Assembly: GCA_030645815.1 (NCBI GenBank)
Contig: JAUSMW010000050.1
Coordinates: 1 to 40,536, forward strand
Direction: 5' to 3'
Source of the DNA: Candidatus Saccharimonadota bacterium
GTDB taxonomy: Bacteria > Patescibacteriota > Saccharimonadia > Saccharimonadales > Saccharimonadaceae
Length of the DNA stretch: 40,536 bases
Every line of letters starts with the position of its first letter. Position 1 is the stretch's first letter. The position numbers and the translations under genes were made by a program. A model generated the notes under the pieces. It was not told the origin of the DNA and made no database searches. It saw only the letters and a list, made by a program, of their open reading frames with translations. Of this stretch, positions 6,654 through 36,200 are shown one piece after another.

Positions 6654-7673
6654 ATGTTTTCATTTAACAAACGTATTGGCATTGATCTTGGGACAGCAAA
6701 CACTTTAGTGTATGTGGCCGGTAAGGGAGTTGTTTTGAATGAGCCGACTGTTGTTGCGGTAAGAGCCGATGACAATAAGGTGGTAGCGGTTGGCCAAGAG
6801 GCAAAAGAAATGTTGGGCCGTACTCCGGGAAATATCGTGGCAACCCGTCCACTGAAAGACGGAGTCATTGCAGACTATGTCATAACTGAGGCGATGCTTT
6901 CTTATTTTATTGAAAAGGTTGCCGGGAAAAGCAGACTTATTAAGCCCGAGGTGATGGTGTGTATTCCGTCGGGTATAACCCAAGTTGAGAAAAGGGCAGT
7001 TCTTGATGCGACCATGGCCGCTGGTGCGCGCTCGGTATATCTCATAGAGGAACCATTGGCTGCCGCTATTGGGGCCAAAATTCCGATAGCTCAGCCCAAC
7101 GGGCATATGATTTTAGATAGTGGGGGTGGGACTTCAGACGTTGCCGTAATTTCATTAGGTGGAGTTGTTGTTCACAAATCAATCAGAGTGGCGGGGGATA
7201 AACTTGAGGAATCGATAGTAAGCTATATCAGGAAAAAATTTAACCTGATGGTGGGTGAGCAATCTGCCGAAGAAATAAAAGTGACTATGGCAAATGCAAT
7301 ACCCGCCTCAAATTCGACAAAAAAGATGGAAGTTAAGGGCCGGGATAGCGTCAGTGGACTTCCTAGAGGCGTTGAAGTATCGGAATTCGAAATTAACGAA
7401 GCGATCCAGCCGGTACTAAAAGCGATGATTGGTGCGATCCGTGAGACATTTGAAATGACGCCTCCGGAACTGGCATCAGATATCATTGATAAAGGAATAG
7501 TTCTTTCCGGCGGCACGACACTACTTCGCAATCTTGATAAATTCATAACACGCGAAACGGGAGTCCCTGCGTATATTGCAGAAGATCCATTGTATTGTGT
7601 TGTCAGAGGAACCGGAGTAGCACTGGAGAATTTGGAACTATATAAGAAATCAATAAATAGGAATGAATATTGA
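6654..7673 (+). CDS. mreB: Rod shape-determining protein MreB/Mbl
   Basis: The 339-residue, full-length bacterial actin polymerises with ATP beneath the membrane and directs lateral wall synthesis. The phosphate-1 loop is IGIDLGTANT (8-17), phosphate-2 is ILDSGGGTSDVAVISLGG (153-170), and the adenosine motif is GIVLSGGTTLL (281-291). Phosphate-2 reads D-S-GGGT-S where most MreB have D-I-GGGT-T; this is a mild variation. IEEPLAAAIGA (131-141) is also typical. No mreC or mreD lies next to it. Its presence argues for a walled, probably rod-shaped cell. No ribosome site is visible before the ATG. Confidence 0.95.
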   Translation: MFSFNKRIGIDLGTANTLVYVAGKGVVLNEPTVVAVRADDNKVVAVGQEAKEMLGRTPGNIVATRPLKDGVIADYVITEAMLSYFIEKVAGKSRLIKPEVMVCIPSGITQVEKRAVLDATMAAGARSVYLIEEPLAAAIGAKIPIAQPNGHMILDSGGGTSDVAVISLGGVVVHKSIRVAGDKLEESIVSYIRKKFNLMVGEQSAEEIKVTMANAIPASNSTKKMEVKGRDSVSGLPRGVEVSEFEINEAIQPVLKAMIGAIRETFEMTPPELASDIIDKGIVLSGGTTLLRNLDKFITRETGVPAYIAEDPLYCVVRGTGVALENLELYKKSINRNEY

Positions 7674-9785: not shown

Positions 9786-11285
<1,500 letters not shown>

Positions 11286-15826: not shown

Positions 15827-18661
15827 TTATTTCAATCTCACTCCGCTCTGGAGGCGGGCGCCGTTGCCGAGTCTTGCAGGAGTCAAATGATCCGGACATG
15901 TTGAGGCAAAAGTCCAGTTGGCACCGACGTTGGAAGGGGTCGAGGAGTAGGCTGTGATAGTTGCACTCCCTGCTTGATCTGTCACGGTAAGGTCAAACAT
16001 ATTAAATGTTCCTGCACCCGTCCAATCACGCTGAACACCACCCGATGATGAGGTGATTGAGATAGTATCTGATCCACCACATGTATTCTGATTGCCCATG
16101 GTGATTGTTCCGCTGTTACTGACTCCGCCAGCACCAACTACTATGTCCCCGGTTGAAGTGTTTACATATTTACCGTTAGCTCCGACAGTAAGGGTTCCAA
16201 ATGTAATATTTCCTGTTTCTTGAGTCAGCTTATCATTGACTGTTAGAGTGCCGGGAATTGTTGCCAAAAATGAGGCATTATTGAATTCTCCATCATTAAT
16301 TGTGAGATTGTTACCCGTGGCATCCAGAGTCAAAGCTGTAGCAAGCGTAAGTGCATAAAATCCGCCTTTATTGATGGTAATAGGAGTAGATAGGCTTCCC
16401 GCATTTTGCGTGAAAGTCTGAGGCCTTGGACCGCCAAAATTAAGAGTCATATTGGCTCCTCCAAATGCATCGGTAGTGCTTGTCGAGAAATTACCTTCAA
16501 CGGTGAGAATATAGGCAGATCCGGGGTTGCTGATAACCCCATCAGTACGAGTGAAGTTGCCTTGTATTGTACAATTACTGCCTAGTACGGTAAGTCCGCC
16601 TGCGTCAGTCTTATTGATGATTACATTTCCTTGAATCGGTGAGGCACAGGAGATTGTTGAATCATCGTCACTGGCTGATCCATCAAAAGTAATCGTTTTA
16701 CCACTCAAATCCCACGTTCCACTTTGAGTAAGACTTCCCTCAAGTGTAATCGCTGTATCAGAGTACGTAACTGTTCCTCCATTGGCAACGTTCACCGAAC
16801 CGCCACCTGATGACCCTGCGCTGGCATCAACATTAAAAGTGTTTCCTGTATGATTTAAAGTTCCATTCACAGTAAGTGTTCCCATGGTCGAGTTAATACT
16901 CGTGACGGTAATCGTGCATCCGGCAGCAAGCGTAAAGTCGGGGTATGTGACAATATCTGCCGTTTTTGCAATGACAACTGATCCACCAAGACTTCCTGTA
17001 CATGTGACAGTTGAATCATCATCAGTATGATTGCCATCAAAGGTAATTGTTTTGCCGCTCAAATCCCAGGTTCCACTTTGAGTAAGACTTCCCTCGATTG
17101 TAATAGCGCTCCCAGAGTACGTAATTGTTCCTGCCGCGCCAACGCTTACAGCACCGGAATTGGATGAGCCAGCACTAGAATCAACATTAAATGTACTACC
17201 AGTGTGATTGAGCGTACCATTGACAGTTAGAATTCCCATTACGGAGTTGATACTAGTGACAGTAATTGTGCATCCTGCAGCGAGAGTGAATGCTGGGTTT
17301 GTGACAATATCGGCCGTTTTTGCAATAACAACTGATCCACCAAGACTTCCGGTACACGTGACAGTTGAATCATCATCAGTATGATTGCCATCAAAAGTAA
17401 TTGTTTTGCCGGTCAAATCCCAGGTTCCACTTTGAGTAAGACTTCCCTCAAGTGTAATAGCAGTTCCTGAATAGGTAATTGTACCTCCGTTACCAACGCT
17501 TACAGCACCGGAGTTAGATGACCCTGCGCTGGCATCAACATTAAATGTACTTCCTGTATGATTTAAAGTTCCATTCACTGTTAGTATTGCCATATCTGAG
17601 TCAATACTAGTAACAGTAATTGTGCATCCGGCAGCAAGCGTAAAGTCGGGATTTGCGACAATATCAGCTGTTTTTGCAATAACAACCGATCCACCAAGAC
17701 TTCCGGTACAGGTAACAGTTGAATCATCACCAGTTTCTGATCCATCAAAGGTAATAGTCTTTCCAGATAAATCCCAGGTACCGTTTTGGGTAAGACTTCC
17801 CTCAAGAGTAATATTAGTTCCTGAATAGGTAATTGTACCTCCGTTACCAACGCTGACTGCACCAGAACTTGTTGAGCCAAGACCGGTATCAACATTAAAA
17901 GTGCTTCCTGTATGGTTTAAAGTTCCATTCACTGTTAGTATTGCCATATCTGAGTCAATACTCGTAACAGTAATTGTGCACCCGGCAGCAAGGGTAAAAT
18001 CAGGTCTATCGGTAATACCGGAAGTTTTTGCAATAACAACCGATCCACCAAGACTTCCTGTACATGTAACTGTTGAATCATCATCAGTTGTGCTTCCATC
18101 AAAAGTGACGGTTGCACCGGTCATGGTTAGAGTTCCTCCTGATGAAGTAAAACTTCGCTCGACTGTCCAAGTGCCTGTGGTAGCAGTATGCACACCTCCA
18201 GATACTGTAAATGATCCATCATTTATATCCAGAGTCTGGGCGCCACCAGCCCATGTGCCTGAGGCTTGATCAAAGTTAGAGGAACCAACGGTGAGCGAGC
18301 GGGCAGCAGTTATCGTCCCTGTATATCCGGAATTTATATCAACTCCCGCAACGCTTCCAGTAAATCCAGCATCAATAGTGGCATCTTTGGTCGAAGTTCC
18401 GTCGAATGTTGCCACATCTGATGCACCCGGAAGGGTATCTGTTGACCAATTGAGCGCGCATGACCATTTATTTCCATCCCCGGCTGCCCCCCCGCATGTA
18501 CCATCCGCACCTCCTCCATCCCAAGTACGTACTGCACCTTGTGCTGGAAATACAAAAACAAATAAGAAGAGTGGGACAGTAAGCGCGAAAATAAGAAGTC
18601 CCGCAAGTGTTCCTTTTTTATTCCTTTTTCTCCTGAATATATTTTTTAAAATGCTTCTCAT
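15827..18661 (-). CDS. Secreted beta-helix-like surface protein with five 118-residue tandem repeats
   Basis: The 944-residue protein has a basic N-terminus and a signal peptide (about 18-43, FPAQGA). The N-terminal part has TWDGGGADG, NWSTDTLPGASDVATFDG and GYTGTITAARSLTVGSSNF and is paralogous to the start of the 18762-21830 protein. A block of near-identical 118-residue repeats follows, each with CTGSLGGSVVIAKTADI, FTLAAGCTITVTSI, LTVNGTLNHTGSTFNVD and GTWDLSGKTITFDG. These are rich in Thr/Ser/Gly and alternate like a beta-solenoid. No autotransporter barrel or LPXTG motif is present. The C-terminus, TPARLGNGARLQSGVRLK, resembles that of its paralogue and may be a sorting tag. A structural or adhesive role is inferred. 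Confidence 0.8.
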   Translation of the reverse strand: MRSILKNIFRRKRNKKGTLAGLLIFALTVPLFLFVFVFPAQGAVRTWDGGGADGTCGGAAGDGNKWSCALNWSTDTLPGASDVATFDGTSTKDATIDAGFTGSVAGVDINSGYTGTITAARSLTVGSSNFDQASGTWAGGAQTLDINDGSFTVSGGVHTATTGTWTVERSFTSSGGTLTMTGATVTFDGSTTDDDSTVTCTGSLGGSVVIAKTSGITDRPDFTLAAGCTITVTSIDSDMAILTVNGTLNHTGSTFNVDTGLGSTSSGAVSVGNGGTITYSGTNITLEGSLTQNGTWDLSGKTITFDGSETGDDSTVTCTGSLGGSVVIAKTADIVANPDFTLAAGCTITVTSIDSDMAILTVNGTLNHTGSTFNVDASAGSSNSGAVSVGNGGTITYSGTAITLEGSLTQSGTWDLTGKTITFDGNHTDDDSTVTCTGSLGGSVVIAKTADIVTNPAFTLAAGCTITVTSINSVMGILTVNGTLNHTGSTFNVDSSAGSSNSGAVSVGAAGTITYSGSAITIEGSLTQSGTWDLSGKTITFDGNHTDDDSTVTCTGSLGGSVVIAKTADIVTYPDFTLAAGCTITVTSINSTMGTLTVNGTLNHTGNTFNVDASAGSSGGGSVNVANGGTVTYSDTAITLEGSLTQSGTWDLSGKTITFDGSASDDDSTISCASPIQGNVIINKTDAGGLTVLGSNCTIQGNFTRTDGVISNPGSAYILTVEGNFSTSTTDAFGGANMTLNFGGPRPQTFTQNAGSLSTPITINKGGFYALTLATALTLDATGNNLTINDGEFNNASFLATIPGTLTVNDKLTQETGNITFGTLTVGANGKYVNTSTGDIVVGAGGVSNSGTITMGNQNTCGGSDTISITSSSGGVQRDWTGAGTFNMFDLTVTDQAGSATITAYSSTPSNVGANWTFASTCPDHLTPARLGNGARLQSGVRLK
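16626..18130. repeat. Five tandem 354-bp repeats inside the 15827-18661 gene
   Basis: The word GATCCACCAAGACTTCC recurs at 16980, 17334, 17688 and 18042, always 354 bp apart. A fifth, more diverged unit is marked by TTGAATCATC at 16657 against 17011, again 354 bp. The period is an exact multiple of three, so unit loss or gain keeps the frame. Edges are approximate. Confidence 0.9.
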
Positions 18662-18687
18662 TATTGTATCGTTAAAATATTAAATAA

Positions 18688-18714
18688 GATTCTTCGTTTT
18701 ACTCAGAATGACAG
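18688..18714. repeat. Dispersed 'CTTCG...CTCAGAATGACA' extragenic element
   Basis: The stretch from GATTCTTCGTTTTACTCAGA through ATGACAG resembles a short extragenic repeat found in many bacterial genomes. A related copy lies at 9258-9277. It sits between the two paralogous beta-helix genes. Confidence 0.45.
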
Positions 18715-18761
18715 TTTATTATTCATTAATCATTTAATCTCTTTATCTATGTTAATTTTAA

Positions 18762-21700
18762 CTAATTCGCATGGATCCTTGTCCCTCCATATATTTTTGC
18801 CCCACCATGAACATTGGTGATGGGGAGGGAGTTCTCTGTTGAAAGTGTTGCAAATGATAAGGGTGATGATTGGTTATTGTACTCAGTTTCGATCCAGGAC
18901 GCTGATCTTGGAGTGCTTGATACTCTCGCTTCATCTATGAGTCCGGTAATATAGCCATGGGCTCCGTTTGAGCCACTTGTTTTATAGCTTCCCATACGGT
19001 AGTAACCGGTATAGTTTTCCGGATTCGCACAGGTTGTTGTATCCTGCAGTTGTCCATCAAAATATAATTTCACATAATTTCCGGTATTGCTGATAGTTCC
19101 CACTATATAATGCCATGCAGAATCATTTACTGTGCTTGTCGATATAGCAAATCTGTCGACTCCATCGTAACAAGTTGCATAAGCCTTACCATCGTTTCCT
19201 ATATCAATGTCTCTGTCATAACTTACAGATCCCGTACCTGTTTGGTTACTTTCAAATCCAAGTATTTTTCTTCCATTAGAACTTGATGTATTTATCCATG
19301 CAGAAATTGTAATTTCATCGGGGTTGACAAAGCTATTTGTAGTCGAAACATAGTCATTTGATCCATCGAAAGACTGTCCACCACCTGTTATACCTGTAGT
19401 TGGGTTGGGTTCTGTAGCCGAAACTTTATTTCCGGTATTCGTATTTGTCGTGGAATCGGTATGAGTTGTACCGCTTGTTTCTTCCAAGTGCCAAACACTC
19501 TTGAAATTTGAATCCCATACATTTGTAGTGTCTTGCTGGCTAGTGGCTGAGGCGTTACCGTAATACATAAATAGTCTAGTATTTGTTCCATTAGAAATAG
19601 TTGGTACTTTAACCCAAAGTATTAGCTCTCCGGTCGCGCCATCAAATTTTTCTATCTCGTGTGACAGCTTGGTAGTCCCATCTTCTGAGGTTATTAGAAT
19701 ATCATCATTATCATCTTGTGCGTATGTTGCAAGGCTTGTGTCTGATGAGAGCTTAACAAGGATAGGAAAATCAGTCTGGGTACCGATAACTTTACTTCCA
19801 TCGATATTTATGGCTCTTCTTTTTGTCCACAGTTTGTTATACCAGTCGGTATATCCTCCGGAAATTGTCCAGCAACTGTTATTACTTACGCTTACAGAAC
19901 CTGATGCTTCTAGAGGATTGGTAGTTCCACCACATGCATTTGAGTCCCTTACTGACAGTTTTGAAAGGGTAGCAGTGCCATTTACGACAAGGCTCCAAGG
20001 ATACCCGTCAGCGGTACTTTTTAGAGTTAAAAGTCCGTCAGAGCTTCCTCTTAGAGTTAATGCATTGCTAACAGTAGTTGTTGAGCTGTTAACAAATTGG
20101 AGAGTTTTGCTGGGTATTATGGATGTTAGGTTGTAAAATGTGGTTGTACCTGAAATGGAGGATGTATAGCCGGAATTATCAAAAGTAACTGTGCTAGACC
20201 CCGGAGTAAATACTCCTCCTGAATGGGTAAAGTTTTGCGATACAGTCATGCCAGATGGCGCAACACTGAAAGTTCCTGCAGACTGCGTAAAGCTACCAGT
20301 AACAGTCACATTTGATGCAGGGGTAAAGGATCCTGACCCACTAATCGTTAGGCTGGAGTAACTACTACCTGCTATTAGAGACGAATATGTTCCTGCTCCT
20401 GTGTACTCGACCGTGCTTCCAGAGGCGATACTCGCAATTGTCGGTATTGTTTCTCCCCCCTGCAGTTTGAAAGTGGCGTCTGCGCCAATGGTAAATTGGT
20501 CATCTACAGTCAGGTTAAATCCAGCTAGATTTAGAGTGCCGGAGGTAAGGATCAGATCCTGACCTGTATGGTTAATCGGTAATTCTGAAGCCATTGTTAC
20601 AGTTCCTGATGCTTTATTTATAGTAAACGTACCTGAAGGAAAACTGGTAGTTCCGGTATAAGTAATAGTTTGGTTATTGGTACCTGTTAGAGTTATGCTG
20701 ACATTTCCATATCCTCCATGCCCATCAGAATCATCTATATTCCCCTGTGCAACTATAGTCCCAGGTCCATCGATAAAGTTTCCGCACCAACCCAATGTCA
20801 GTGTATGTGCAACTGTAACTGTTGTTCCGGAAGCAATAGTAGAGGTTGCGCAGTTATCATCTTTCGATAGATCGTAAAAAGTTGTATTACCGGTAATTGT
20901 CATATTTCTATTGCCAGCAGAAATCCTAATAGCGCTAGTATATGTTGTTGCGTCAACTGTGCCCTGAACGTATTCCCAGCCCCCTGCAGATATGGCTTCG
21001 CTGTCTTTGATGTAAAAGGTTCCTGTAGCTTTATCTATTTTGAGTCCTGGAACACTTCCCCCGCTTCCACCAGACCAATTCTGTGTACCAGTACCGTTTA
21101 CTGTTATAACAGCATCTCCTGTAAGCCCGTTATTAGTATTGTGCAAAATATCTCCTTGAACAGTTACAATTCCAGGTCCATTAAGATTGGAATTTGTAGC
21201 GTTAACGCCCAAGGTCCCACCGATTTTGAAGGTTTTTCCCGTAACAATATCGTAAGTACGTCCATTTCCATTAAAATTGACGTTATTATACGTTTCTGTG
21301 CTTGGACTAATTGAACTATTGGCATTGCCAAAACTTAATGTTCCACCGTTTGCTGTAAAAGTACCGCTGACATTCCAGCTGTTGTTAGTTGTAATAGATC
21401 CTGCGGGCGCAGTAAATGATCCGCTTGTTAGCGCAAAGGCACCACCATTAAGATCCATATCACTGGTATTGTCCCCTCCAGTAAATGTACTACCTGAGGC
21501 ATTTTGGGTGTAGCCGGATGCTCTGATATTTACATCGTTTCCATTGCCTTGAGTTATGGTACCGGTATAACTGTTGGTGATATTTATGCCCGCAACATCA
21601 ATAGTAGTGTCAATTGTTACGTTGCAATTACTTGTGGCGCTATCAAAGGTTGCAATATCTACGGTCCCTGGAAGTCCTCCATCCCAATTTCCGGCGGTAT

Positions 21701-21838: not shown

Positions 21839-21870
21839 TAATACTTAATACGTAATACTTTATACTTAAT
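21839..21870. repeat. Period-7-like repeat (ATACTTA words) before the 18762-21830 gene
   Basis: ATACTTAATACGTAATACTT followed by TATACTTAAT is an imperfect array of TTAATAC/ATACTTA words. It lies between the ATG of the 18762-21830 gene and the end of the 21866-22273 gene, overlapping that gene's last codons. Confidence 0.6.
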
Positions 21871-22273
21871 TTGACAATTCTTCATAAAGACTGATTTTGC
21901 CTATATCTCTGACTGTTTTGGTGCTAGGATCAAATATCACTGTTTGCTGCGGAGTTGTGATAATTACATCTCCTTTATATGCTTTCTTAAGAAAAGGGTA
22001 TTTCCCGATAAGTGGCTTGGGATCATTGATAATTGCAGTAATTACCGGTTGATCGTCGCCGATGTCGTATATCTTGTTGGATTCTATGATGGTAACGTCA
22101 TTTTTGGCCGCTTCTTTATCGAGTGTTTGTATTTTTTCAAAAGTCTGTTGATTGGGTTGAGGAGGGGATAAAGGTTTATTGGTCCTTGCTGCAAGCACAA
22201 TAAAACCAACCAAGAGAAGAAGAACCGAAACAGTCACTAACAGTTTATTTTGAAATATTTTGTGTGCAGTCAT
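21866..22273 (-). CDS. Small membrane-anchored protein, paralogue of 22515-23027
   Basis: The 135-residue protein has one N-terminal membrane helix (about 10-29) and an exterior domain. NKIYDIGDDQPVITAIINDP and YPFLKKAYKGDVIITTPQQT followed by VIFDP and VRDIG correspond position by position to the neighbour's KIYQLPNETPTIATITEKGE and DPFYEKAIEGDKILIFADSR, IIMYRP and VIDVG. The two are paralogues sharing a compact alpha/beta fold that I do not recognise by name. The gene lies among exported surface proteins on the same strand, so an accessory surface or signalling role is possible. Confidence 0.65.
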   Translation of the reverse strand: MTAHKIFQNKLLVTVSVLLLLVGFIVLAARTNKPLSPPQPNQQTFEKIQTLDKEAAKNDVTIIESNKIYDIGDDQPVITAIINDPKPLIGKYPFLKKAYKGDVIITTPQQTVIFDPSTKTVRDIGKISLYEELSN

Positions 22274-22514: not shown

Positions 22515-23027
22515 TTATTCTAACTTCCGGAGGATTTTTGGTGTCGTTTGAGGCTGTGGGAGACTGAGTGTTTGTTGCGCAGAACCCGTACTGGAAGTTG
22601 AACTCCCGGCGACTTCAGGTACAGGTGTCGCCTCAGTTTTTGGCTCAAGAGTTCCGACATCAATCACTTTATTCTCTGAAGGCCGGTACATGATAATTTT
22701 TCTGGAATCGGCAAAAATGAGGATTTTATCCCCCTCGATAGCCTTTTCATAAAAAGGGTCAGGAGGTAGCTCTCCCTTTTCAGTGATTGTTGCAATGGTT
22801 GGTGTTTCATTCGGGAGTTGATAAATTTTGCCGACTATTTCAACCAGGGATTGTGCGACCGCTTTTGCTTTTTGAGGTTCATTAACAGTTTTGAATTCAT
22901 TTTTTTTGTTATTTGAAATTGTTATAAAGATAAGAAGTATGACTGCAATTAAAGCGATTCCAATGCCTCCAAACACTTTCTTGCCGAGAGGAGTTAGTTG
23001 TATGTTCCTGGGGTTGATTCTTTTCAT
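22515..23027 (-). CDS. Small membrane-anchored protein, paralogue of 21866-22273
   Basis: The 170-residue protein has a membrane helix (about 18-38) after a basic N-terminus, the shared domain (about 58-125, with IYQLPNETPTIATI and FYEKAIEGDKILIF), and a disordered Ser/Thr/Pro/Gln-rich tail (130-170) that the paralogue lacks. The same-strand upstream gene is the Cache-type sensor (23090-24694), 62 bp away. It has its own promoter in that gap (23039-23067), so it can be expressed alone. Function is unknown. Confidence 0.65.
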   Translation of the reverse strand: MKRINPRNIQLTPLGKKVFGGIGIALIAVILLIFITISNNKKNEFKTVNEPQKAKAVAQSLVEIVGKIYQLPNETPTIATITEKGELPPDPFYEKAIEGDKILIFADSRKIIMYRPSENKVIDVGTLEPKTEATPVPEVAGSSTSSTGSAQQTLSLPQPQTTPKILRKLE

Positions 23028-24719: not shown

Positions 24720-27362
24720 TCAATAACTTTTCCATTCTCTGAGAAATTCTTCTTCGCTCAGAACCCCGTATAATATTTTTTTAATTACACCCTTTTCATC
24801 TATAAAATAGTGGGAAGGCATCGTATTTATACTGTACAAATTTGCAAGTTCTACCTCAGAATCAACCACAATCGGGGTGTTATATTTGCCTCTTTTTTGA
24901 AATAGGGATACTTTTGTTTTGTTCTCACCAACAGCAACGATAACGCCATTTAACCTCTTTTGCGCAATTAGCTTGTCAAGAATTCCAACTTGGTCCAAAG
25001 ACGAAGGCGACCAGCTAGAAATAAAAGTCATAACATTTTTCTTTCCAAGTATTGACTTGCTATCAAAATTACCGCCCGTAGAGTAGGGGAGTATAAATTT
25101 GGAGATTTTGCGACCGACAAGCGTTGGCTTTTTGTCTATCTTGATTGATTGTTCGAAATTGGTATTAACTGTTGCTGTGTCGTTGAAGAGGTCAGGAAAT
25201 ACTATCTCAAATGAACCAATTTTTATCTTTGGTGAAGAATTTAGGTTAAATGTAGTATTGATGGGGGTTGATATTTCAGTCGTAAATATATCAGTGGCTA
25301 TCGGTCTTGAACCTTTGGCATCAATTCTCATGTAATATTTTCCAGGAGGTACATAAAAATGATAATCACCTTTACTATCTGTTATTTGTGGATTTTCCTG
25401 CTTAAAGGCGCTTGCATTCCATTTTGTCCAAAGCTTTGAAGCCGGGTTTTGATAGTATAAAGTAGCTGTAGCATCTTGAATCGGCGCACCTTTTTTATCC
25501 AATACTTTTCCTGAAGGAAGCACAATTACATCATTAATATTCCGTTCTATTTTGTGTCCGGCTCCATCAATTGATCTCACATTTAATTTATGACGTCCGG
25601 GTGAGGTAAAGCTTAGCGCACCGCTCCAGAGACCAGTTTGAGGGGTTTTGACGAGTGAGAACATCTGCTTTGATGTAGTTGTATCAGTTATAAGGTCAAC
25701 CGTTGTTGCCCCACCAACTGATGACATGGTTATCTTTTGGTCAAAGCCTGAGAGCATGAGGATGCTGCCATCTGCCAGTGGAGTAACTACTTGAGATCCA
25801 AGGGACAAAATATTTCCTCCAACGCGTGGTGGGAGTCTATCAATTACCAAAGTTTTTTCTTCAGAAATACCTATGTTGCCTGATGTATCTATTGCCCGTG
25901 CTTTGATGTTGTAGTTCCCGTCCTCTTTAACCTGTGGAGTAAAGGTATTTCCCTCAACTGGCAACCAGTTTTGCCCTCCATCAATAGAAAACTCAACTCT
26001 TTGTACTTGCTTGTCGTCAGTTGCATTTACTGACATTTTGGGAGCAGTTATATAAGGCTTTGTTACATTTGCAATTAACGTTATTGTTGGTGGAGTAGTA
26101 TCTTGTGGGATGACGGGAATAATTTTTCCATCAGGAGTTGTAATAAAAGCAGGAGTTGGTGTTGGAGTGGGGGTTGATGTGGATGAAGAAGCTGAGGTTG
26201 TTGGAGTTGGTGTCGGAGTCGGGGTTGAGGTGGGAGTTGTAGTCGATGAAGAAGCTGAGGTTGTTGGAGTTGGTGTTGGAGTAGAAGTCGGGGTTGGGGT
26301 TGGCGTTGCAGTAACGGTTGCTACAGCAGTAGTAAAAGTATTGTCGCTACTGGTTGTGGTAAGTGGAGCTGCAGAGGTAGACACAACTTGATAATGGTAA
26401 GTAGTATTTGCTGTGAGACCGGTCAGCGTCGCTGTGTGAGAGGTGGAATATGTACTATCTGAGCTAGTTGAGCCATAACCGGAAGTAGTTCCATAATTAA
26501 CAACTGATGTTGCTGCTATATCAGTAGTCCATGTGATAGTGACTGATGAAGATGTGATAGTTCCTGCAGAAATATTGGTAATTACAGGAGCAGAAGACCC
26601 GCCACCGGCTGCTGCACTCGTTGTGAATTGACTTACTTCATAGTCAATATTGGAATTACTATCCTCAACGTACGCTTCGAAATAATAGGTTGTTGAAGGT
26701 GTTAAGCCTACAAGAGAATAGGAATGAAATGTATTGGGTGTAGAGATGGATGAGCTTGAACCATACTCGGTAGTCGTACCATAGTTAATTTCTGATATTG
26801 AGTCTACAGTTGAAGTCCAATAGACAGATGCTGTAGTTGATGTGATATTTAGAGCATTTAAGTTAGCTAACTGAACAGGTTCATTCGAACCGGAGATTAT
26901 GGAAACTGCAGTGGTGCCAGTGCAACTACCAATTGTTGATCCACCATCATCAGAGACTTGTACTATCCAATTGGCGGCGTTAGCGGCTGAATCTATAGTT
27001 GTTACATTTACTGTAAAATATGAAGTGCCATCTGCTGCAATTTGGCCCGATGAGAAAGTTATTGCCGATGAGGCTGGTGCGTTATCCCAGTTGTCAGAGT
27101 CTCCGGAATTGATAGTAAATCGAAAATTTGGCCGCGTAATTTTAATCCAATTATATGAAGACGCGTCATTGTTAGTAATCGTAAATACAAGATTCGTTGT
27201 GGTGGCCTGAGTAATGGCAGTTGTGTTGGTAGTAACCGCACAGTTCTCGACAGTTGCCAAAGCCTGGGATGAAGAAAAGTGAACAAAGAAAAAATTAATT
27301 AAAAGAACAATAAGGCCAAAAATTGGTCTTAATTTAATACTTTTTACTCTAAAGGCTTTCAT
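24720..27362 (-). CDS. Secreted fibronectin/Ig multidomain protein ending in a cysteine-less thioredoxin fold
   Basis: The product has 880 residues from the ATG at 27360-27362; a GTG nine codons upstream also is in frame but overlaps a promoter-like TATATA. After the signal peptide (MKAFRVKSIK ... SSSQALA) come an N-terminal domain and two fibronectin type III-like domains (INYGTTTEYGSS and VNYGTTSGYGST mark equivalent strands). A Thr/Pro/Ser linker of TPTPTP type, an Ig-like domain (VQRVEFSIDGGQNWLP) and a carboxypeptidase-regulatory-like domain (KGAPIQDATATLYY, YHFYVPPGKYYMRI) follow. The last ~120 residues form a TlpA/redoxin-like domain: NVMTFISSWSPSSLDQ, NGVIVAVGE, TMPSHYFIDEKGVI. The C-x-x-C of active TlpA is replaced by S-P-S-S (25001-25015), so it cannot do thiol redox chemistry. 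A binding role is inferred. Confidence 0.8.
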   Translation of the reverse strand: MKAFRVKSIKLRPIFGLIVLLINFFFVHFSSSQALATVENCAVTTNTTAITQATTTNLVFTITNNDASSYNWIKITRPNFRFTINSGDSDNWDNAPASSAITFSSGQIAADGTSYFTVNVTTIDSAANAANWIVQVSDDGGSTIGSCTGTTAVSIISGSNEPVQLANLNALNITSTTASVYWTSTVDSISEINYGTTTEYGSSSSISTPNTFHSYSLVGLTPSTTYYFEAYVEDSNSNIDYEVSQFTTSAAAGGGSSAPVITNISAGTITSSSVTITWTTDIAATSVVNYGTTSGYGSTSSDSTYSTSHTATLTGLTANTTYHYQVVSTSAAPLTTTSSDNTFTTAVATVTATPTPTPTSTPTPTPTTSASSSTTTPTSTPTPTPTPTTSASSSTSTPTPTPTPAFITTPDGKIIPVIPQDTTPPTITLIANVTKPYITAPKMSVNATDDKQVQRVEFSIDGGQNWLPVEGNTFTPQVKEDGNYNIKARAIDTSGNIGISEEKTLVIDRLPPRVGGNILSLGSQVVTPLADGSILMLSGFDQKITMSSVGGATTVDLITDTTTSKQMFSLVKTPQTGLWSGALSFTSPGRHKLNVRSIDGAGHKIERNINDVIVLPSGKVLDKKGAPIQDATATLYYQNPASKLWTKWNASAFKQENPQITDSKGDYHFYVPPGKYYMRIDAKGSRPIATDIFTTEISTPINTTFNLNSSPKIKIGSFEIVFPDLFNDTATVNTNFEQSIKIDKKPTLVGRKISKFILPYSTGGNFDSKSILGKKNVMTFISSWSPSSLDQVGILDKLIAQKRLNGVIVAVGENKTKVSLFQKRGKYNTPIVVDSEVELANLYSINTMPSHYFIDEKGVIKKILYGVLSEEEFLREWKSY

Positions 27363-27426
27363 ATGAGCCCGCCTATATAAGTTTAGCACAATAAAATAGA
27401 AACAATATTTATTTATAAAATCCTAA

Positions 27427-30270
27427 TTAAAAAGAGAAGGATTGTTCAATGCCATTATCAAACCATGATCCGTGCCTCATTATCTGTTCATTTGTAGGAC
27501 CGGTTACTAATTGTGTATATATGATGATAATAACTCCACCTGCACCTGTTCCAATTGTTGCTCCACCGCCACCTCCCCCTCCATACAATCCACCATTTGC
27601 ACCTGTACCCGTTTGGGGGTCGCCGCCACCGCCTCCACCACCAGCGATAGATGGATCGCTAGTTGAAATTCCGTCTCCACCAACGCCCCCATTTGTAGCA
27701 GTATCTCCACCGCCTCCACCCGAACCATCGGTACCGGGATTTCCGTTTGCTCCATTTGCTGTAGTTCCTCCGTTAGCAAAACAGCTATTTCCACCAGGGC
27801 CTCCGTTAGCACCACCAATAGTTCCATCATTAGAAGCGCCAATGCTATCACATCCTGATCCACCGCCACCACCCTGCGCCTCATCTCCTCCGATTGAACC
27901 ATCGCCATTTCCACCAGTACCCCCGGTTCCATTTGGACTGCCGGCACCGCCCCCGCCACCCGTACTATCGTCACCTGTTGCACTACCAGTTCCACCTGCC
28001 CCACCAGCAAATTCTCCATTTGGACCAATCCCAGTAAGATCGCCACCTGCGCCACCTGCAGCACTGGTTGAAGTAGTTCCCCCATTTGCGCTTACGATTA
28101 CATTAGAATCCGTGTAATTTGCACAGCCTGTTGTATTGTTACAAAACCATGTATTTCCACCATTCACGCTGTCTGTGCCTCCTGATCCAACGCTAAAGTT
28201 AACATTGGTAGAAGCAGTAAGATCTGCATTTAATATACGTGCATATGCACCACCACCACCACCACCGCCTCCTGTGCTTAAATTGTCTCCAGCGCCCCCA
28301 CCGCCAATGGCGTAGATAGTATTTACATCAGTCCAGTCCGAGGGAACTGTCCAGCATCCTGATCCGCACGTACCGTCGGCATTAGCGTCAAGAACAATAG
28401 TAGAATCCGCGTCAGATGCTATTTGCCATTGTCGCAATTCGCTAAAAATAACCGCTTCCTTTTGGTTTGAAGTTTGCGTAGATGGTTTAGTAACTGATAT
28501 TTCAGCTGATGGAGTAGCAGTGCCCAGAACAAATGGATTTTTACTTACATCAAATTTAGCTTGGTCAATTTCAGGTATTTCAGAAGTCACAAATTGTAGA
28601 GGCCCGATCGAATAAAAATATGGTGAGCGGTAGGGCGCTTTATAATGATAGCCAATTGTTATTTCGTCCCCTGCTTGAAGATCAACATTCCAAACGATTG
28701 CTTTTGCTGCAAGGGGGTATTCCGCTGTTGAGAGGACTTCGTCCTCGATAACAAGCCCAAAGAATGGCGCGGGGTCAATTTTTCCATAATAAAGGTTGTT
28801 TATGTCGTAAACCTTTGGCTTGAGGCTGAAATGTAAATGTGGACCTGTGGTCAAAAGTCCCGTATTTCCTGATAACCCTAGCACACTTCCAGGGGATATG
28901 GTTTCCCCAGCTTTAACCCCAATTTTACTTAAATGCCCGTAATACGACCGTCCCCACGAATGCTCAATAACCACCGTGTGTCCGTAGACCCAATTTTCTT
29001 GAGCCAAAATTACTTCTCCACTATCCACTGCCAGAACGGGAGTTGCCGCAGGAAGAGCAAAATCGATACCGTCATGTCCATCTATTCCGGATTGTTTATA
29101 TTTATCCCTCATTCCATGCCTGTCAATTTGCTGGCCAAATCCAAGTGTTACCGGATATTTGTCGTCAAATGGCAGGCGAAGGTCAGGTATATTTGTTTCG
29201 GATTGTATATTGTAACTTTCTGAAATGCCACTTTCTTGAGAATAGGATAGAGTTGAGTCGGGTCCTTTTGAAATTTGAAAATCATGAGGTACACTTTCAA
29301 TGATCTTGCCTCTAAAAGGTTGATTTGCCTTTATTTTCATCTCAACAGGATAAGTTTTTGGCGGGTAAATACGTGTTGCAGTAATTCTTTCGACATCGAA
29401 AGGAACTGTGTCTCTTACCTCAAACCGGTCATTTACAGTATAAGTACCATTAAGAGTGTTAGCAGTTAGCTTCATATTATATCTTCCAACAGCTCCGGTA
29501 AGAAAAGAAGCTTCATAGTCTGGTCTAACGGTCACTTCATGCATGAGGCATTCACGATTGACAATGATCCCACCATTTTGGGTCGAAAGAGTAGATATGG
29601 TTCCCAATGGTGATTCTATCTCAAGGTTGACAGTGGCATCACAAACCATGCGTCCTCCTTCATCTAGCACTCCAATTGCAATGCTGGCCAGTTCTTCGGG
29701 TAAATACATCGACTTATTTGTGTTAATTGCCAAAACTCCCCAAGTAAAATCCTGAGTAGACACTGTTTCATTCGTATCGGCATCAATTATTTTGACAGTG
29801 TAGGATCCAGGTCTCATGCCAACCTCAGGATTGATGCTAAAAACGTATTCGCCATTTATATATTTTTCATCTACTTTGACATTCAGCTCAGAGCTTTTTG
29901 AATTTTTGATATCTATTCTATAACGAGTTGTAGGACGGGCATTTTTTACTACAAATTCAATTTTTTCTTTTGCTTGATATGCTACTCTTGATAGTTTTAC
30001 AACATAATCTTCGGGTTGGAAGACCGCGGATGCTGGGCTAGAGGGAATTGATAGATCAAGAATACTTTCAGGTACAGGTGTACCGGTACCAAGGTTTTCA
30101 AGTGTTGCTGACATAGTAGAGTTGGGGGTAGGAATGATCTCCTGGGCAAATGTTTTACGAGGTTGTAGGTTGTAGGCAGAAGGTTGTAGAAAAATAGATG
30201 TAAGAACCAGGAGTTCAATACAAATGGTTAAACACTTCTTAATTTTGATTTTTAAATTATAATTTTGCAT
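27427..30270 (-). CDS. Secreted M23 (LytM) metallopeptidase fused to a glycine-rich domain
   Basis: The 947-residue protein has a signal segment (about 10-42) and Ig/macroglobulin-like beta domains (about 88-330; KLSRVAYQAKEKIEFVV, NTNKSMYLPEELASIAI). An M23 peptidase domain lies at about 370-500: GHDGIDFALPAATPVLAVDS gives zinc ligands His399 and Asp403, YYGHLSK His446, and GPHLHFSL the His478-x-His480 pair. All expected ligands are present, so peptidoglycan cleavage is plausible. The C-terminal third (about 655-925) is dominated by Gly-Gly runs and ends GGVIIIIYTQLVTG, like glycine-rich adhesive domains. It lies 19 bp downstream of the giant repeat gene and may help pass surface proteins through the wall. 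The N-terminal codons lie in intergenic-type AT-rich DNA and the signal region contains a heptamer array. Confidence 0.88.
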   Translation of the reverse strand: MQNYNLKIKIKKCLTICIELLVLTSIFLQPSAYNLQPRKTFAQEIIPTPNSTMSATLENLGTGTPVPESILDLSIPSSPASAVFQPEDYVVKLSRVAYQAKEKIEFVVKNARPTTRYRIDIKNSKSSELNVKVDEKYINGEYVFSINPEVGMRPGSYTVKIIDADTNETVSTQDFTWGVLAINTNKSMYLPEELASIAIGVLDEGGRMVCDATVNLEIESPLGTISTLSTQNGGIIVNRECLMHEVTVRPDYEASFLTGAVGRYNMKLTANTLNGTYTVNDRFEVRDTVPFDVERITATRIYPPKTYPVEMKIKANQPFRGKIIESVPHDFQISKGPDSTLSYSQESGISESYNIQSETNIPDLRLPFDDKYPVTLGFGQQIDRHGMRDKYKQSGIDGHDGIDFALPAATPVLAVDSGEVILAQENWVYGHTVVIEHSWGRSYYGHLSKIGVKAGETISPGSVLGLSGNTGLLTTGPHLHFSLKPKVYDINNLYYGKIDPAPFFGLVIEDEVLSTAEYPLAAKAIVWNVDLQAGDEITIGYHYKAPYRSPYFYSIGPLQFVTSEIPEIDQAKFDVSKNPFVLGTATPSAEISVTKPSTQTSNQKEAVIFSELRQWQIASDADSTIVLDANADGTCGSGCWTVPSDWTDVNTIYAIGGGGAGDNLSTGGGGGGGGAYARILNADLTASTNVNFSVGSGGTDSVNGGNTWFCNNTTGCANYTDSNVIVSANGGTTSTSAAGGAGGDLTGIGPNGEFAGGAGGTGSATGDDSTGGGGGAGSPNGTGGTGGNGDGSIGGDEAQGGGGGSGCDSIGASNDGTIGGANGGPGGNSCFANGGTTANGANGNPGTDGSGGGGGDTATNGGVGGDGISTSDPSIAGGGGGGGDPQTGTGANGGLYGGGGGGGATIGTGAGGVIIIIYTQLVTGPTNEQIMRHGSWFDNGIEQSFSF
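30160..30190. repeat. Heptamer (GGTTGTA) array inside the signal-peptide region of the M23 gene
   Basis: GGTTGTAGGTTGTAGG and a further GGTTGTAG after a short interruption. The array is translated on the minus strand as part of SAYNLQPRKTFA, just before the predicted signal cleavage site. Confidence 0.6.
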
Positions 30271-30289: not shown

Positions 30290-33200
30290 TTAGAAAGATG
30301 ATAGATAATTGAGTGTGATGTCTCCTACCTGTACGTGATTGCTGTCTTTACTTGACATCTTAAGCATGATAATTACCTCATCACCGGCCGTATCAAGGTC
30401 ATTTGCGGCGCCACTATCAAGGAGAGTACCTGCAATATCTATGTTGGTCCAAGTCTTTGAAATGGTTCTCTGGGCTTGCCGATAGGCAACAGGTGTTGCG
30501 GCTTGAGCAGCAGTCATTCCTCCAAAAGTACCGTTATATATGTATACGTCAAGTCTGTTGGTATCAGGATTTCCGAGCTCAGTGTTGAATTTGATTTGAG
30601 CAGCAGATGTAGATGTAGGCCACGCTGAGAAGTCGGCAGGCAATTTCACTCTTACTGCAACCGTGTAGTCCTGAAGAGTGGTAGACGTTGAGCTCCACTC
30701 ATAGTAATTGGTGAAGTTAGATAATTGAGCCGAAGCAGAAGCATCAGATGTCATGCTTCCTGTAGTTGTTGCCGATCCTGAAGCGGTAAGTGTGGCGCCA
30801 GCGTACTCTGCCATAAGAGTGATATTTTTTAGAGGACGTGCGCTACCCGCAAATCTAGGACCTTGATTGAGATAATCAAATACAATTCCATTGGTATCAT
30901 TTCCGATTTGGACAATACCATTTTGCTTGACTGTAAAGCGCGTCATGCCAGAGGATGAGGCAGTAAAGATATCACCAACGCCTGAATTGTCGACAACGAG
31001 CCCGGCAAAAGATGTATTGGCACTGACAGATGCTCCAACGACTGTTCCTTTAAATGGATTGTTCTGGCCAGTAACCCTGAATGCAGCAGAGGACGATGAT
31101 GTCCCTCCAGCCAAGAAATCAAGGGTAGTATTTGAAGGCATAATAGCGCCAAGAGATATATCAAATGCACTCGAAGATCCGACTCCACATGATCCCCAAG
31201 TGGCGCCTGATCCAACCCCGCCTGATTTGAGACATTCACCGCTATTTCCTTCATTTGTCCCAAGCCTAATTCCACCGGAATTTGTAATGGTGAATTTCGC
31301 AACACCCGAGGCAGAAGCACTAAATATGTCTTGCGTACCTGTATTGTTGAGCACAAGAAGCGCTTGTCCAGTCGGGGCGCCCTGGATAAGGTTTCCTGCG
31401 CCTGAAGCCGTAATAAATGAGAAAGTCCCATTTGCTAGAAGCCCTCCTACTCCAATCGTGACACCACCACCAATGGATAAGTTGTTGCCAATGTCAGTAT
31501 TTTCACTAACCAAAAGAGAATTTGTGGAGATATTTCCGATGCTTGCAGCAGGCGAATCTATACCATTTATATCAACAACCTGAAGACCAGATGTTCCATC
31601 CGAAACATAAGCATATTTACCGGATACAAAAGAATTAAGTGCGCTCCCTGAGGTATCATATGCACCGATATATTGAGGCAGTGTAGGATTTGAAATATCA
31701 ATGATTTGCAATCCGGAAGTACCAGTAGATAAGTATGCGTATTTTCCTGACACAAATACACCGGTTGCATTCCCGGTTGTATCAAGGGATCCGACAATTG
31801 TAGGGGCATTTGGATTTGAGACATCAACAATCATAAGTCCCAAGGTATTTTGCGCAAGATACACATATTTTCCCGAAACATACACACCTCGTACTGTATT
31901 AGTTACATTCTGTTGCTTAACAAGCGTAGGACTAGACGAATCGGATATATCAAAAATGTAAAGTAAATTGTTGAAATCTCCGACATAAGCATACTTACCC
32001 ATTACGTATATCGATTCAGCGAGCTGTGTGACACTAACATCTTTATAGAGGCGTATAGGATTTGCCGGATTTGATATATCTAAAATTGTTAATCCATCAA
32101 TTGTGTCAAGATAATATGCTTTATTTCCGGTTACAAAAACATCCATCCCATTTCCACCACCGGCATACGTACCAATAACCTGTGGCGCAAGAGGATTTGA
32201 AATATCCAGAACCTTAAGACCTATTGCGGCTGTCGTATCAACAACATAAGCATATTTTCCAGCAACATAAACACTAACAGCAGCAGTAAATGAACTATTT
32301 GTGCCAATTTGAATAGGGGAGGACGGATTTGAGATATCAATAACTTGTAACGTAGTTCCATCCGCAACATAAGCATATTTTCCAGCAATATAAATATCTT
32401 GAGCGTTATTAGGTGTGTTGAAAGTTCCTTTTAAGACCGGGTTACCATCCGCTTTTTGAAGGAAATTACCTCCGTTAAGTGTTAATTTCTCTGTGGCAGA
32501 CCCAGTACCGATATTTACATTTCCACTTTGCTGGACCGTAAATCTTTGAAGACCTGACGAGGAGGCTGTAAAGATATCACCGGATCCGGAATTATCAACA
32601 GTAAGCGCCGCAAACGAAGTTGCACCAGAAACAGATGCAACAGGAAGGATTCCCGAAATTCCTCTCATATCCATTGTCGCTAGGGCTGCAGTTCCAAGCG
32701 TTGGTACATTCCCAACAGTGAGAGCTCCCGTTTCGTCAATCCTCAGTCTTTCAGTTCCGGTGACTGTTGTGGTTGTGGCAGCCGTGAAGAAACGTATCAT
32801 GGTCATTGCATTTTCCGATAACGAGTTTCCTCCTAGGTATAGTTGGTTTCTCCCTCCACCAACTGCTCCAATAAGACCCGTTACAGGTGCTTGAGAATTT
32901 GTAGAGTGTGCGAATTTCAAACGGCCAAATTTTGCTGTTTCATCAGCTTCACTGTCCTGTAGCATGAGCCCTCCTGTGCCTGAGATACCATGGATAAGAT
33001 GTACCATGCCCAAGCTGTTTGCTGGTCTTATAAATATGTCTCCGGTTGTATCTCCTCCAATTGTCAAGGTTTGCATCTTGGTTGTCTGCAAACTTCCTGC
33101 GGCGTCTAATACTAAGTTTCCAGATATTGAAGCTGTCTGAGAACCTCTTGCATCATTTATGCCAAGAATTGCAAATTTAGCAGATTCTGTCGCAGTCCCC

Positions 33201-36200
33201 CCAAGAAGGAAATCAAGAGTAGAGTTACCTGCAAATATTGTTCCAAGAGATGAATTCTGGTTGAATGGTGACCCTCCATTTGCGATACCAAGAATTCCTG
33301 TTACATCAGATGATGCAAGATTTACAGCAGATGAAGAAAGAAGACCATTTGAACCAATGTGTGCTATTCCAGTTGAAAGAGAGGAGAACACTGTTGATCC
33401 ACCAAGAGTTGTTGTTGAAAGAGGAGAAAGAACAATATTTCCAGTATTTCCTCCTCCTATTGTTAATGTTTGTTTTGCAGTTGTTTGTATATTTCCATCA
33501 GCTGTAACAAAGAGAGCCCCATTAACTCCTGCACTAACAGAGGCAGTTGGTGTTCCGTTATTTATATTTAGTACTGCAAACTTAGCAGACAAGGTTGCAT
33601 TTCCTCCAAGAAGAAGATCAAGAGTGGAGTTACCTGAGTATATTGCACCATTTGCAATGTCCCATTGGGTTGTTCCTGTTCCACCCGGACATGTTGTCCA
33701 GGAAGGAGCAGAAGCACCGGATACAAGACATAGGCCTGTTGAAGCGGTTGTTGCTTGTGCAAGTACTCCTGTTGTTTGGGTTGCATATAGAATACCATTT
33801 TGACCAGTGTATCCTGGGAGAGTGATATTCTTTCCTGATTGGCCAATAACCAAGTCACCGGTTGTTCCTCCACCAAGAGTCAAAGTTTGATTTCTCGTTG
33901 TCTGAAGACTACCTTCAGAATCAAGAACTATTGATCCAGAGAGAGTAGCAACTTGAGTTCCTCGAGCACCTACTATATTTGTGATAGCAAATTTTGCAGA
34001 ATCAGTAGAGACACCCCCGAGAAGGAAGTCAGTAGTAATGTTCCTTTGTGTTATTACACCTGCAGATAATTGTAATGGGCTCATGCCGATAGGACAGTCC
34101 GCGCTTCCGATAACGATACCGTTTTGAGTTGTGACACAAGTAGCTGATGCAATGGTTGCGCCATTGGTACCGTTGCTTATAACTGTTCCTGTGACATTAA
34201 GAGTACCTGTAATATTAACGTTGCTTCCTTGTGCAACAGTCAAAGCAGGTGTAGTATTTGAATTCTTATTAACTCCGATTTCAAAACTTCCAGTTGTCGT
34301 ATTTACACCAAATGAGTAGTCGGTCGTCTGTCCGCAGCCATCAGTTGTTGTACAGATGATATGAAGCGAGCCGGGGCCAAGATATAGACTTCTAAATCGG
34401 GCCGATGGGGAAGACCCCAGGTCGGTTACATTGTCAGCAAAAGGCGCAATAAATCCGCCTGCTACTGCATTTCTTGGGTTGAGAATGATATTGCCTGTAG
34501 TATCTCCACCGATGGTGAGGGTTTGGTTATTTGTAGTCTGCAAAGATCCTGTTGCATCTAGGACCAAATTACCTGATATAGAGGCAGTCTGTTGTCCACG
34601 TGCGTTGTTTATTCCCAGTACTGCAAACTTTGCAGAAGCGGTAGAGTTACCACCTATGAGAAGGTCTAGGGTAGAGTTGCCTGAATAGATAGCACCTGAT
34701 GCAATATCCCATTGAGTCGTACCTGTGCCACTAGGACATGTCCCCCAAGTCGCACCTGATCCCACTCCTCCTGAGAGTAGGCATTGATTTGAGGTGCCCT
34801 CATTTGTTCCTAGTCTAATTCCACCTGAGTTAGTAACCGTGAATTTGGCAACTCCTGATGCGCTTGCAGTAAAGATATCTAGATTGCCTGTTTTGTTGAT
34901 GATAAGTGCTGCTTGTCCGCCTGAAATTGAAGTGATGGTCGCGCCAGCACCATTTCCTGAATTTGCGATATTTAGAACACTTCCTGTGGCAAGACCATAA
35001 CTTTGCGTAAGAGACAGAACATTTGCGCTGTTGGTACATGTTCCTGATGTTATTGTGCAGTTGTCAGTAAGAGAAGCGAGCGCTCCGGTAGTTGTTATGA
35101 CGCCGCTTGCACCCGAGGTAGGATTTCTTGAAATATTGAGTAGGTTACCGGTAAGACTGACTGTTGAGGTATATGTTGTTGCAGAACCAATTGTAAGAGC
35201 CTTTCCAGTTGTCAGAGCGTTGGCATTAATAGTAACGGCATCGGTAGTTGTACCTGGGAAGTCAAATGTTGTTGTTGCGTTGTCTGCAAATGTTACATAA
35301 GTTGCTCCGTTGTCTTGGACCAAAAAGTCTCCAGTGGAGGAAAGGTTGGCGACTAGATTGCCGGCACCAGGATCAAGTGAGATGTCACCTGTTCCTGATC
35401 CGATATTTACAAATCCGCTAGGTGCTGAAAGAGTGAGGTCTCCGTCAGCCTCTGCTGAGATGGTAGGAGCAGTAACTGCGCCTGATGAATTGAAGGCAAG
35501 AACACCATTCAGGTAACCAGCTTTTCCTAGAGATAAGACTCCTCCTTGGGATAGAGAGAGGAAGCCGCGATTGTTGCCACTTGTGCTATTAACACCAAAT
35601 TCAAGACTTCCAGAGGTAGTATTTACTCCTAGTGAGTAATCAAGATTTTGGGCACATCCATCTCCGGTTTTGCATTGGATGTGAAGAGATGTTGGTCCAA
35701 GGAAAAGATCTTTAAATCTGGCAGATGGAGATGATCCAAGAGCGACTGTATTGTCTGCACCTGGGAGAATTGCAGAACCGGAGACAGAGTTACGAGGGCT
35801 TAAGATAATATCTCCTGTCGTATCTCCTCCAACGGTCAGAGTCTGGTTGTTTGTGCTTTGGATATTACCAATTCCATCGATGGTAAATCCAGCCGATGAA
35901 GATGCCGTGCCATCATTTTTGATGACAAATTTAGTAACACCTGAGGCAGAGGCTGCAAGAATATCATGGGTTGAAGGCTGGTTGATGGTTAGAGCTGCTG
36001 TGCCCATGCTTACAGATGTTGTATTTATACCAACAGAGTGGACTCCAAAATCACCTGTAATAAGTGGTGTAGTTGTGTTGGAATTTGCTATATAAAGCTT
36101 GTTGGAAAGCGTTTCATTGTAGCCTGCGTTATAGCCGATAAATACACCGCTTCTACCCGATGTGTTGGAGCGTCCGGCGCCACTACCCACGAATGTATTG

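Follow-up and report, generated by a model that had tools for sequence, protein, structure and literature searches.

Two exported proteins encoded side by side in a stretch of 40,536 nucleotides of Patescibacteria DNA (the window), P0001 and P0002, end in a common sequence. This ending is a module in its own right, real and portable, which terminates large exported proteins, most of them rich in beta structure. The module is a repeat, stands at the extreme C-terminus of proteins bound for export, follows domains of different kinds and takes on no fold in the structural model. It is probably a genuine attachment or assembly tag. The reading that we prefer, with a probability of roughly 0.38, is that of a flexible and exposed C-terminal docking or assembly peptide, whose partner, beta-addition and attachment we infer.

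The gene pair and its C-terminal ends

P0001 (15827-18661, minus strand; 944 aa) is a long beta-repeat protein behind a signal peptide, and has no Pfam domain above cut-off. P0002 (18762-21830, minus strand; 1022 aa) consists of a signal peptide, a beta-repeat half, DUF2341, a LamG domain (Laminin_G_3) and the tag. The signal peptide and the N-terminal half are common to both proteins, with 30% identity over about 590 aligned columns. The later halves differ: DUF2341 and LamG are found in P0002 only, and P0001 carries further beta-repeats. Judged by this level of identity, the two proteins are old paralogues. The first-pass annotation had described a recently duplicated pair with unrelated late domains; the second part of this description stands and the first does not.

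P0001 ends in PARLGNGARLQSGVRLK and P0002 in ITNVHGGAKIYGGTRIHAN, each followed directly by the stop codon. The tag comprises two hexads in both cases, RLGNGARLQSGVRLK at 15830-15874 in P0001 and NVHGGAKIYGGTRIHAN at 18765-18815 in P0002 (both minus strand). Since the two tags use different codons, they are not accounted for by a recent duplication. The endings quoted in the first-pass annotation are exact, with 0 and 2 residues, respectively, after the quoted motif. That motif is real but was drawn too short; the full motif repeats with a period of 6, has hydrophobic residues at three positions and in this pair takes the form x[ILV]xGG[TAV]x[ILF]xGG[TV]x[ILF]. The tandem hexad occurs once in each protein, at the C-terminus.

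Motif definition and specificity

The consensus of the tag is [ILV]-x-G-G-[TASV]-x-[IL]-x-[GDS]-G-[TVS]-x-[ILF]-x(1-3)-stop. In the alignment of the tags, the hydrophobic, G and T/A/S/V columns are kept and the remaining residues are variable. A relaxed pattern matches the window twice, against 0.13 matches expected and with two or more in none of 100 shuffles; over the whole genome to which the window is assigned, its 2 matches are the two tags, and the reversed control also gives 2. The strict expression matches 15 of 824 C-termini, which is not a genome frequency because the loci were chosen partly for the tag. It matches one of the 824 tails of 40 residues when these are reversed, and 57 of 28799 internal cut points. 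Two spacing variants (G546 and G464b) and two one-hexad ends (G495b and G519b) fall outside the strict expression and were added by eye.

Distribution of the tag

Among 100 relatives, the genome of the window included, the strict tandem pattern was found in three, always 12-14 codons before a stop, and the reversed control gave 0 matches. Across the order, 392 genomes gave six exact matches to the DNA pattern, one in each of six genomes; in every case a long open frame reaches its stop 12-14 codons further on. When up to one mismatch was allowed, 79 places in these genomes were read in frame, and seven of them are C-terminal (the six exact matches and one inexact), all in frames 598-1385 aa long. 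The remaining 72 fall in arginyl-tRNA synthetase, a permease-like protein, other protein interiors and short junk frames (names assigned by eye). A looser hexad pattern gave 66 places in 197 genomes, one of them (position 7486 of the window) placed by coordinates only, inside MreB; nine of the 66 are C-terminal, all in proteins of exported type.

Over the phylum as a whole (379 genomes, of which 347 are outside the order by our count), the exact pattern was found in the genome of the window only, with three matches in the reversed control. The looser pattern gave 81 in-frame readings at 80 loci of the phylum sample, five of them near a stop and one of these convincing; the places left unread were MreB-like by eye, duplicate sequence, or in genomes already covered (G000, G011, G033, G065 and G248). 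The convincing case, in genome G149 from outside the class, is a very large exported Ig-like protein that ends in VQVHIEGGVNLNDGVQLAP before the stop.

The two-hexad proteins thus number 17, namely the pair in the window, 14 proteins with the Ig/FnIII-like domain described below and the G149 protein; one expression fits 15 of them. The tag therefore extends beyond the supposed recent pair, to the same C-terminal position in other genomes. Its description as lineage-specific holds roughly: the tag is sporadic in Saccharibacteria and turned up a single time in a different class of the phylum. Matches in viruses, in five contigs, were never C-terminal, and a tag in viruses was rejected. Also rejected as a phylum-wide tag was a lone hexad whose last residue is basic, a form known from Parcubacteria: it gave 11 matches in 314 genomes against 10 in the control, none of the 11 on a plausible exported protein. 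No earlier description of the tag was found in the open-licence literature.

Tag carriers and their export

The last domain before the tag is usually an Ig/FnIII-like sandwich; LamG, a beta-repeat region and a bacterial Ig domain also occur there, and the linker between this domain and the tag is short and variable. The sandwich was first seen as common to six bearers. Its best solved Foldseek matches are Ig and FnIII folds, with weak E-values, and its match to Pfam (Ig_Rha78A_N) is marginal. A profile of the domain found matches in 11 of 53 genomes, 19 proteins by our count, of which 14 end in two hexads, two in one (GGVIIGQ) and three in neither. Examples of the tagged ends, each running to the stop, are INIGGGTSIYSGTTIGG, ININGGTTIYDGVTIGH, YIDGGTIIDGGTIIGN and VEIRGGSEIRGGSLIGN. 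The genome of the window has no match to the profile, yet its P0001 and P0002 are tagged. Among named records, 13 of the 14 loci with the domain belong to Candidatus Saccharibacteria and end in two hexads (11) or one (2); the fourteenth is an Omnitrophota protein in which the domain is internal and there is no tag. The named records are largely the same genomes as those given here by G numbers and do not constitute independent evidence.

All 11 complete and unmasked bearers, two of them one-hexad proteins, have an N-terminal hydrophobic segment, the hydropathy peak being at least 1.96 in ten and 1.45 in one. In the strict-expression set, three of the 15 tagged ends belong to proteins scored as complete; two of these have the segment, and the N-terminus of the third (G507) is masked by N. 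P0001 and P0002 resemble secretory proteins that are cleaved; in several bearers the N-terminus is long and basic and there is a single transmembrane helix, with no obvious cleavage site. The suggestion that the tag belongs to exported proteins is supported, and the tag was found on no complete protein of cytoplasmic appearance. Hydropathy over the last 80 residues does not exceed 1.13 in any bearer, which agrees with the initial description of ends without a membrane anchor. With no C-terminal hydrophobic segment, the tag should not be a membrane anchor.

DUF2341 was considered as the tag carrier and discarded: it is present in four of 118 genomes, that of the window included, and the four proteins from other genomes, each followed through to its stop (L012-L015), end without the tag. 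DUF2341 together with LamG is also found in G630. The NCBIfam model TrpL_Coryne, a Corynebacterium trp leader, matches inside three large surface proteins of Saccharibacteria (L017:7468-9261, L096:6044-10198 and L193:1-2751), over cut-off once only; this is likely a false annotation.

Comparison with known systems

Like C-terminal sorting signals, the tag is short, extreme C-terminal, sporadic and portable between unrelated exported proteins. LPXTG signals, read by sortase, combine an LPXTG-like motif with a hydrophobic segment and a basic tail; PEP-CTERM (exosortase) and GlyGly-CTERM (rhombosortase) signals have a C-terminal transmembrane segment and a basic cluster. Unlike all three, the tagged ends have no membrane segment or basic tail; nor do they carry an LPXTG-like motif, and neither the sortase search nor the genes beside the tagged ones gave a matching enzyme. 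The presence of sortase in tagged genomes is uninformative as to LPXTG membership. PMC11809585 reports that Patescibacteria encode proteins of very large size with FhaB and/or DUF2341 domains, for which a role in adhesion was suggested. P0002 and the G630 protein resemble the large DUF2341/LamG exoproteins of Patescibacteria in carrying both domains; the difference lies in the tag, as the main text of PMC11809585 mentions no C-terminal motif and contains neither the term 'C-terminal' nor 'sortase'.

Structure of the tag and resemblance to Hexapep

In an AlphaFold2 model of a monomer, built on only 13 related sequences, the sandwich that precedes the tag is mostly predicted with pLDDT above 85, and the tag with about 55, without a strand and without packing on the domain. 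The tag thus appears to lie outside the domain, as a free tail in the monomer. A single-sequence model of the P0002 tail was uninformative (pLDDT 34).

Nine of ten internal matches to the looser pattern, picked by eye, are left-handed beta-helix proteins of the Pfam family Hexapep (PF00132), so that the period of the tag is that of beta-solenoid rungs. The consensus of Hexapep is [LIV]-[GAED]-x2-[STAV]-x. Tags share with Hexapep repeats the period of 6, a hydrophobic position i, the mostly T/A/S/V position i+4 and a G at the turn, and the DNA pattern of the tag also recovers true Hexapep enzymes; set against the consensus, i and i+4 agree for the most part. The period and the STAV position are the reason why rungs of a beta-solenoid are read into the tag. 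Unlike Hexapep proteins, the tag has only two hexads, stands at the extreme C-terminus and is free at i+1, where it does not fit the consensus; eight tag tails gave no match in Pfam, Hexapep included, at E-values up to 10, a search of short tails subject to the HMMER filters.

Genomic neighbourhood

The search for a co-occurring processing enzyme, proposed together with the motif, covered sortase and gave no dedicated enzyme: all 53 of 53 genomes have sortase, whether tagged or untagged, and its presence is thus unrelated to that of the tag. Nor was a conserved processing gene seen beside the tagged genes.

Next to P0002 lie two small membrane proteins of one family, of 135 aa (21866-22273, minus strand; no Pfam match) and 170 aa (22515-23027, minus strand). 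The former is a candidate partner by neighbourhood only, and the latter has relatives next to the tagged genes of G519 (L068) and G149 (L219). In the 1.59 Mb of overlapping sequence searched, the members found come from three genomes, and each is separated from a tagged gene by no more than about 1.1 kb; the family may be common elsewhere.

The same strand run of the window contains a giant repeat protein with an LVIVD beta-propeller (30290-40096, minus strand; more than 3200 aa, open to the contig end). Very large open frames also adjoin tagged genes in G061, G464, G616, G630, G495 and G519, and no such giant lies beside those of G083, G507 and G546 within the stretches fetched. An open frame of at least 1000 aa occurs in one of 34 control loci, a rough comparison given that locus sizes differ. 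Hexads in the adjoining giants are at shuffle level; the idea of the tag as a unit of these neighbours was rejected on this ground, and no shared-fold partner was found among them. Homology between the C-termini of the giant in the window and a 952-aa protein of G149, suspected by eye, was not found by phmmer.

Other genes of the window deserve brief mention. An M23 peptidase with a very glycine-rich tail is encoded at 27427-30270 (minus strand); an alignment of 191 residues from its N-terminal region shows 41% identity with the tagged giant of G149. The product of 24720-27389 (minus strand) is exported and has FnIII domains, an OmpL47-type domain and a C-terminal AhpC-TSA/redoxin domain. At 9833-10615 (plus strand), a membrane hairpin like that of the ATP synthase c subunit follows a signal peptide and an exported domain of about 180 residues, to which it is fused; by eye, this gene heads what looks like an ATP synthase operon.

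Alternative explanations

That the ending is a functionless low-complexity residue, or a chance product of glycine-rich proteins, is very unlikely. The proteins are indeed rich in G, T and S, but the tandem hexad is confined to one terminal copy in each of P0001 and P0002, reversed tails and internal cut points hardly ever match, and six of six exact matches are terminal. We also consider it unlikely that the tag is a binding tip, turned outward by an uncleaved N-terminal anchor and in contact with a host cell or polysaccharide. The bearers with a basic N-terminus and one transmembrane helix would suit such an arrangement, as would the lifestyle of Saccharibacteria, described as epibionts in PMC8080830; against it, P0001 and P0002 appear to be cleaved, and the motif is kept in genomes that are far apart, where a host-specific tip would typically vary.

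Two serious rivals to the preferred reading are left, both of them tentative. One is a folding or oligomerization element, in which the hexads trimerize or cap their own protein with no outside partner. The period-6 [ILV]xGG[TV] pattern fits beta-solenoid rungs, and the bearers are long, beta-rich and fibrous; the variable linker, the different folds that the tag follows and its failure to pack on the domain in the monomer model speak against it. The other is a sorting signal, as first suggested, here taken as an extreme C-terminus read by a dedicated enzyme or export gate that cleaves it or attaches it covalently. Position, portability across domains and sporadic distribution are those of such signals, and sortases are at hand in all 53 genomes tested. 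Being universal, sortase does not follow the tag; the tagged proteins lack a C-terminal transmembrane segment, no conserved processing gene was seen beside their genes, and NCBIfam gave no C-terminal signal model.

According to the docking or assembly reading that we prefer, the tag would be exposed at the C-terminus after Sec export. Its two or three short beta-strands, split by GG turns, would then add as rungs to a beta-solenoid or beta-sheet that belongs either to a second copy or to an adjacent surface protein, and this addition would hold the tagged protein in the cell coat.

Origin of the contig

The genome to which the window is assigned measures 1.46 Mb, with 6.12% contamination. MreB of the window (6654-7673, plus strand) matches the looser pattern. 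Judged by eye, MreB does so in many genomes from outside the order too, but the match is absent from the remaining 196 genomes within it. The contig is therefore possibly misbinned and, on this sequence evidence, may belong to another Patescibacteria lineage. This would change the species label and not the motif.

Implications for Patescibacteria

To our knowledge, the attachment of surface proteins in Patescibacteria, and hence attachment to the host, is largely unknown. The tag marks a set of surface proteins, for which it predicts a shared fate, and in a Saccharibacterium that can be cultivated it could be removed from one protein or moved to another. A bolder proposal, which we regard as rather improbable, is that it represents a new, non-hydrophobic C-terminal surface-assembly signal of Patescibacteria, forming one or two left-handed beta-helix rungs on a common scaffold. 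If this were true, unrelated adhesin-like proteins would enter the coat of the epibiont without sortase or a membrane anchor.
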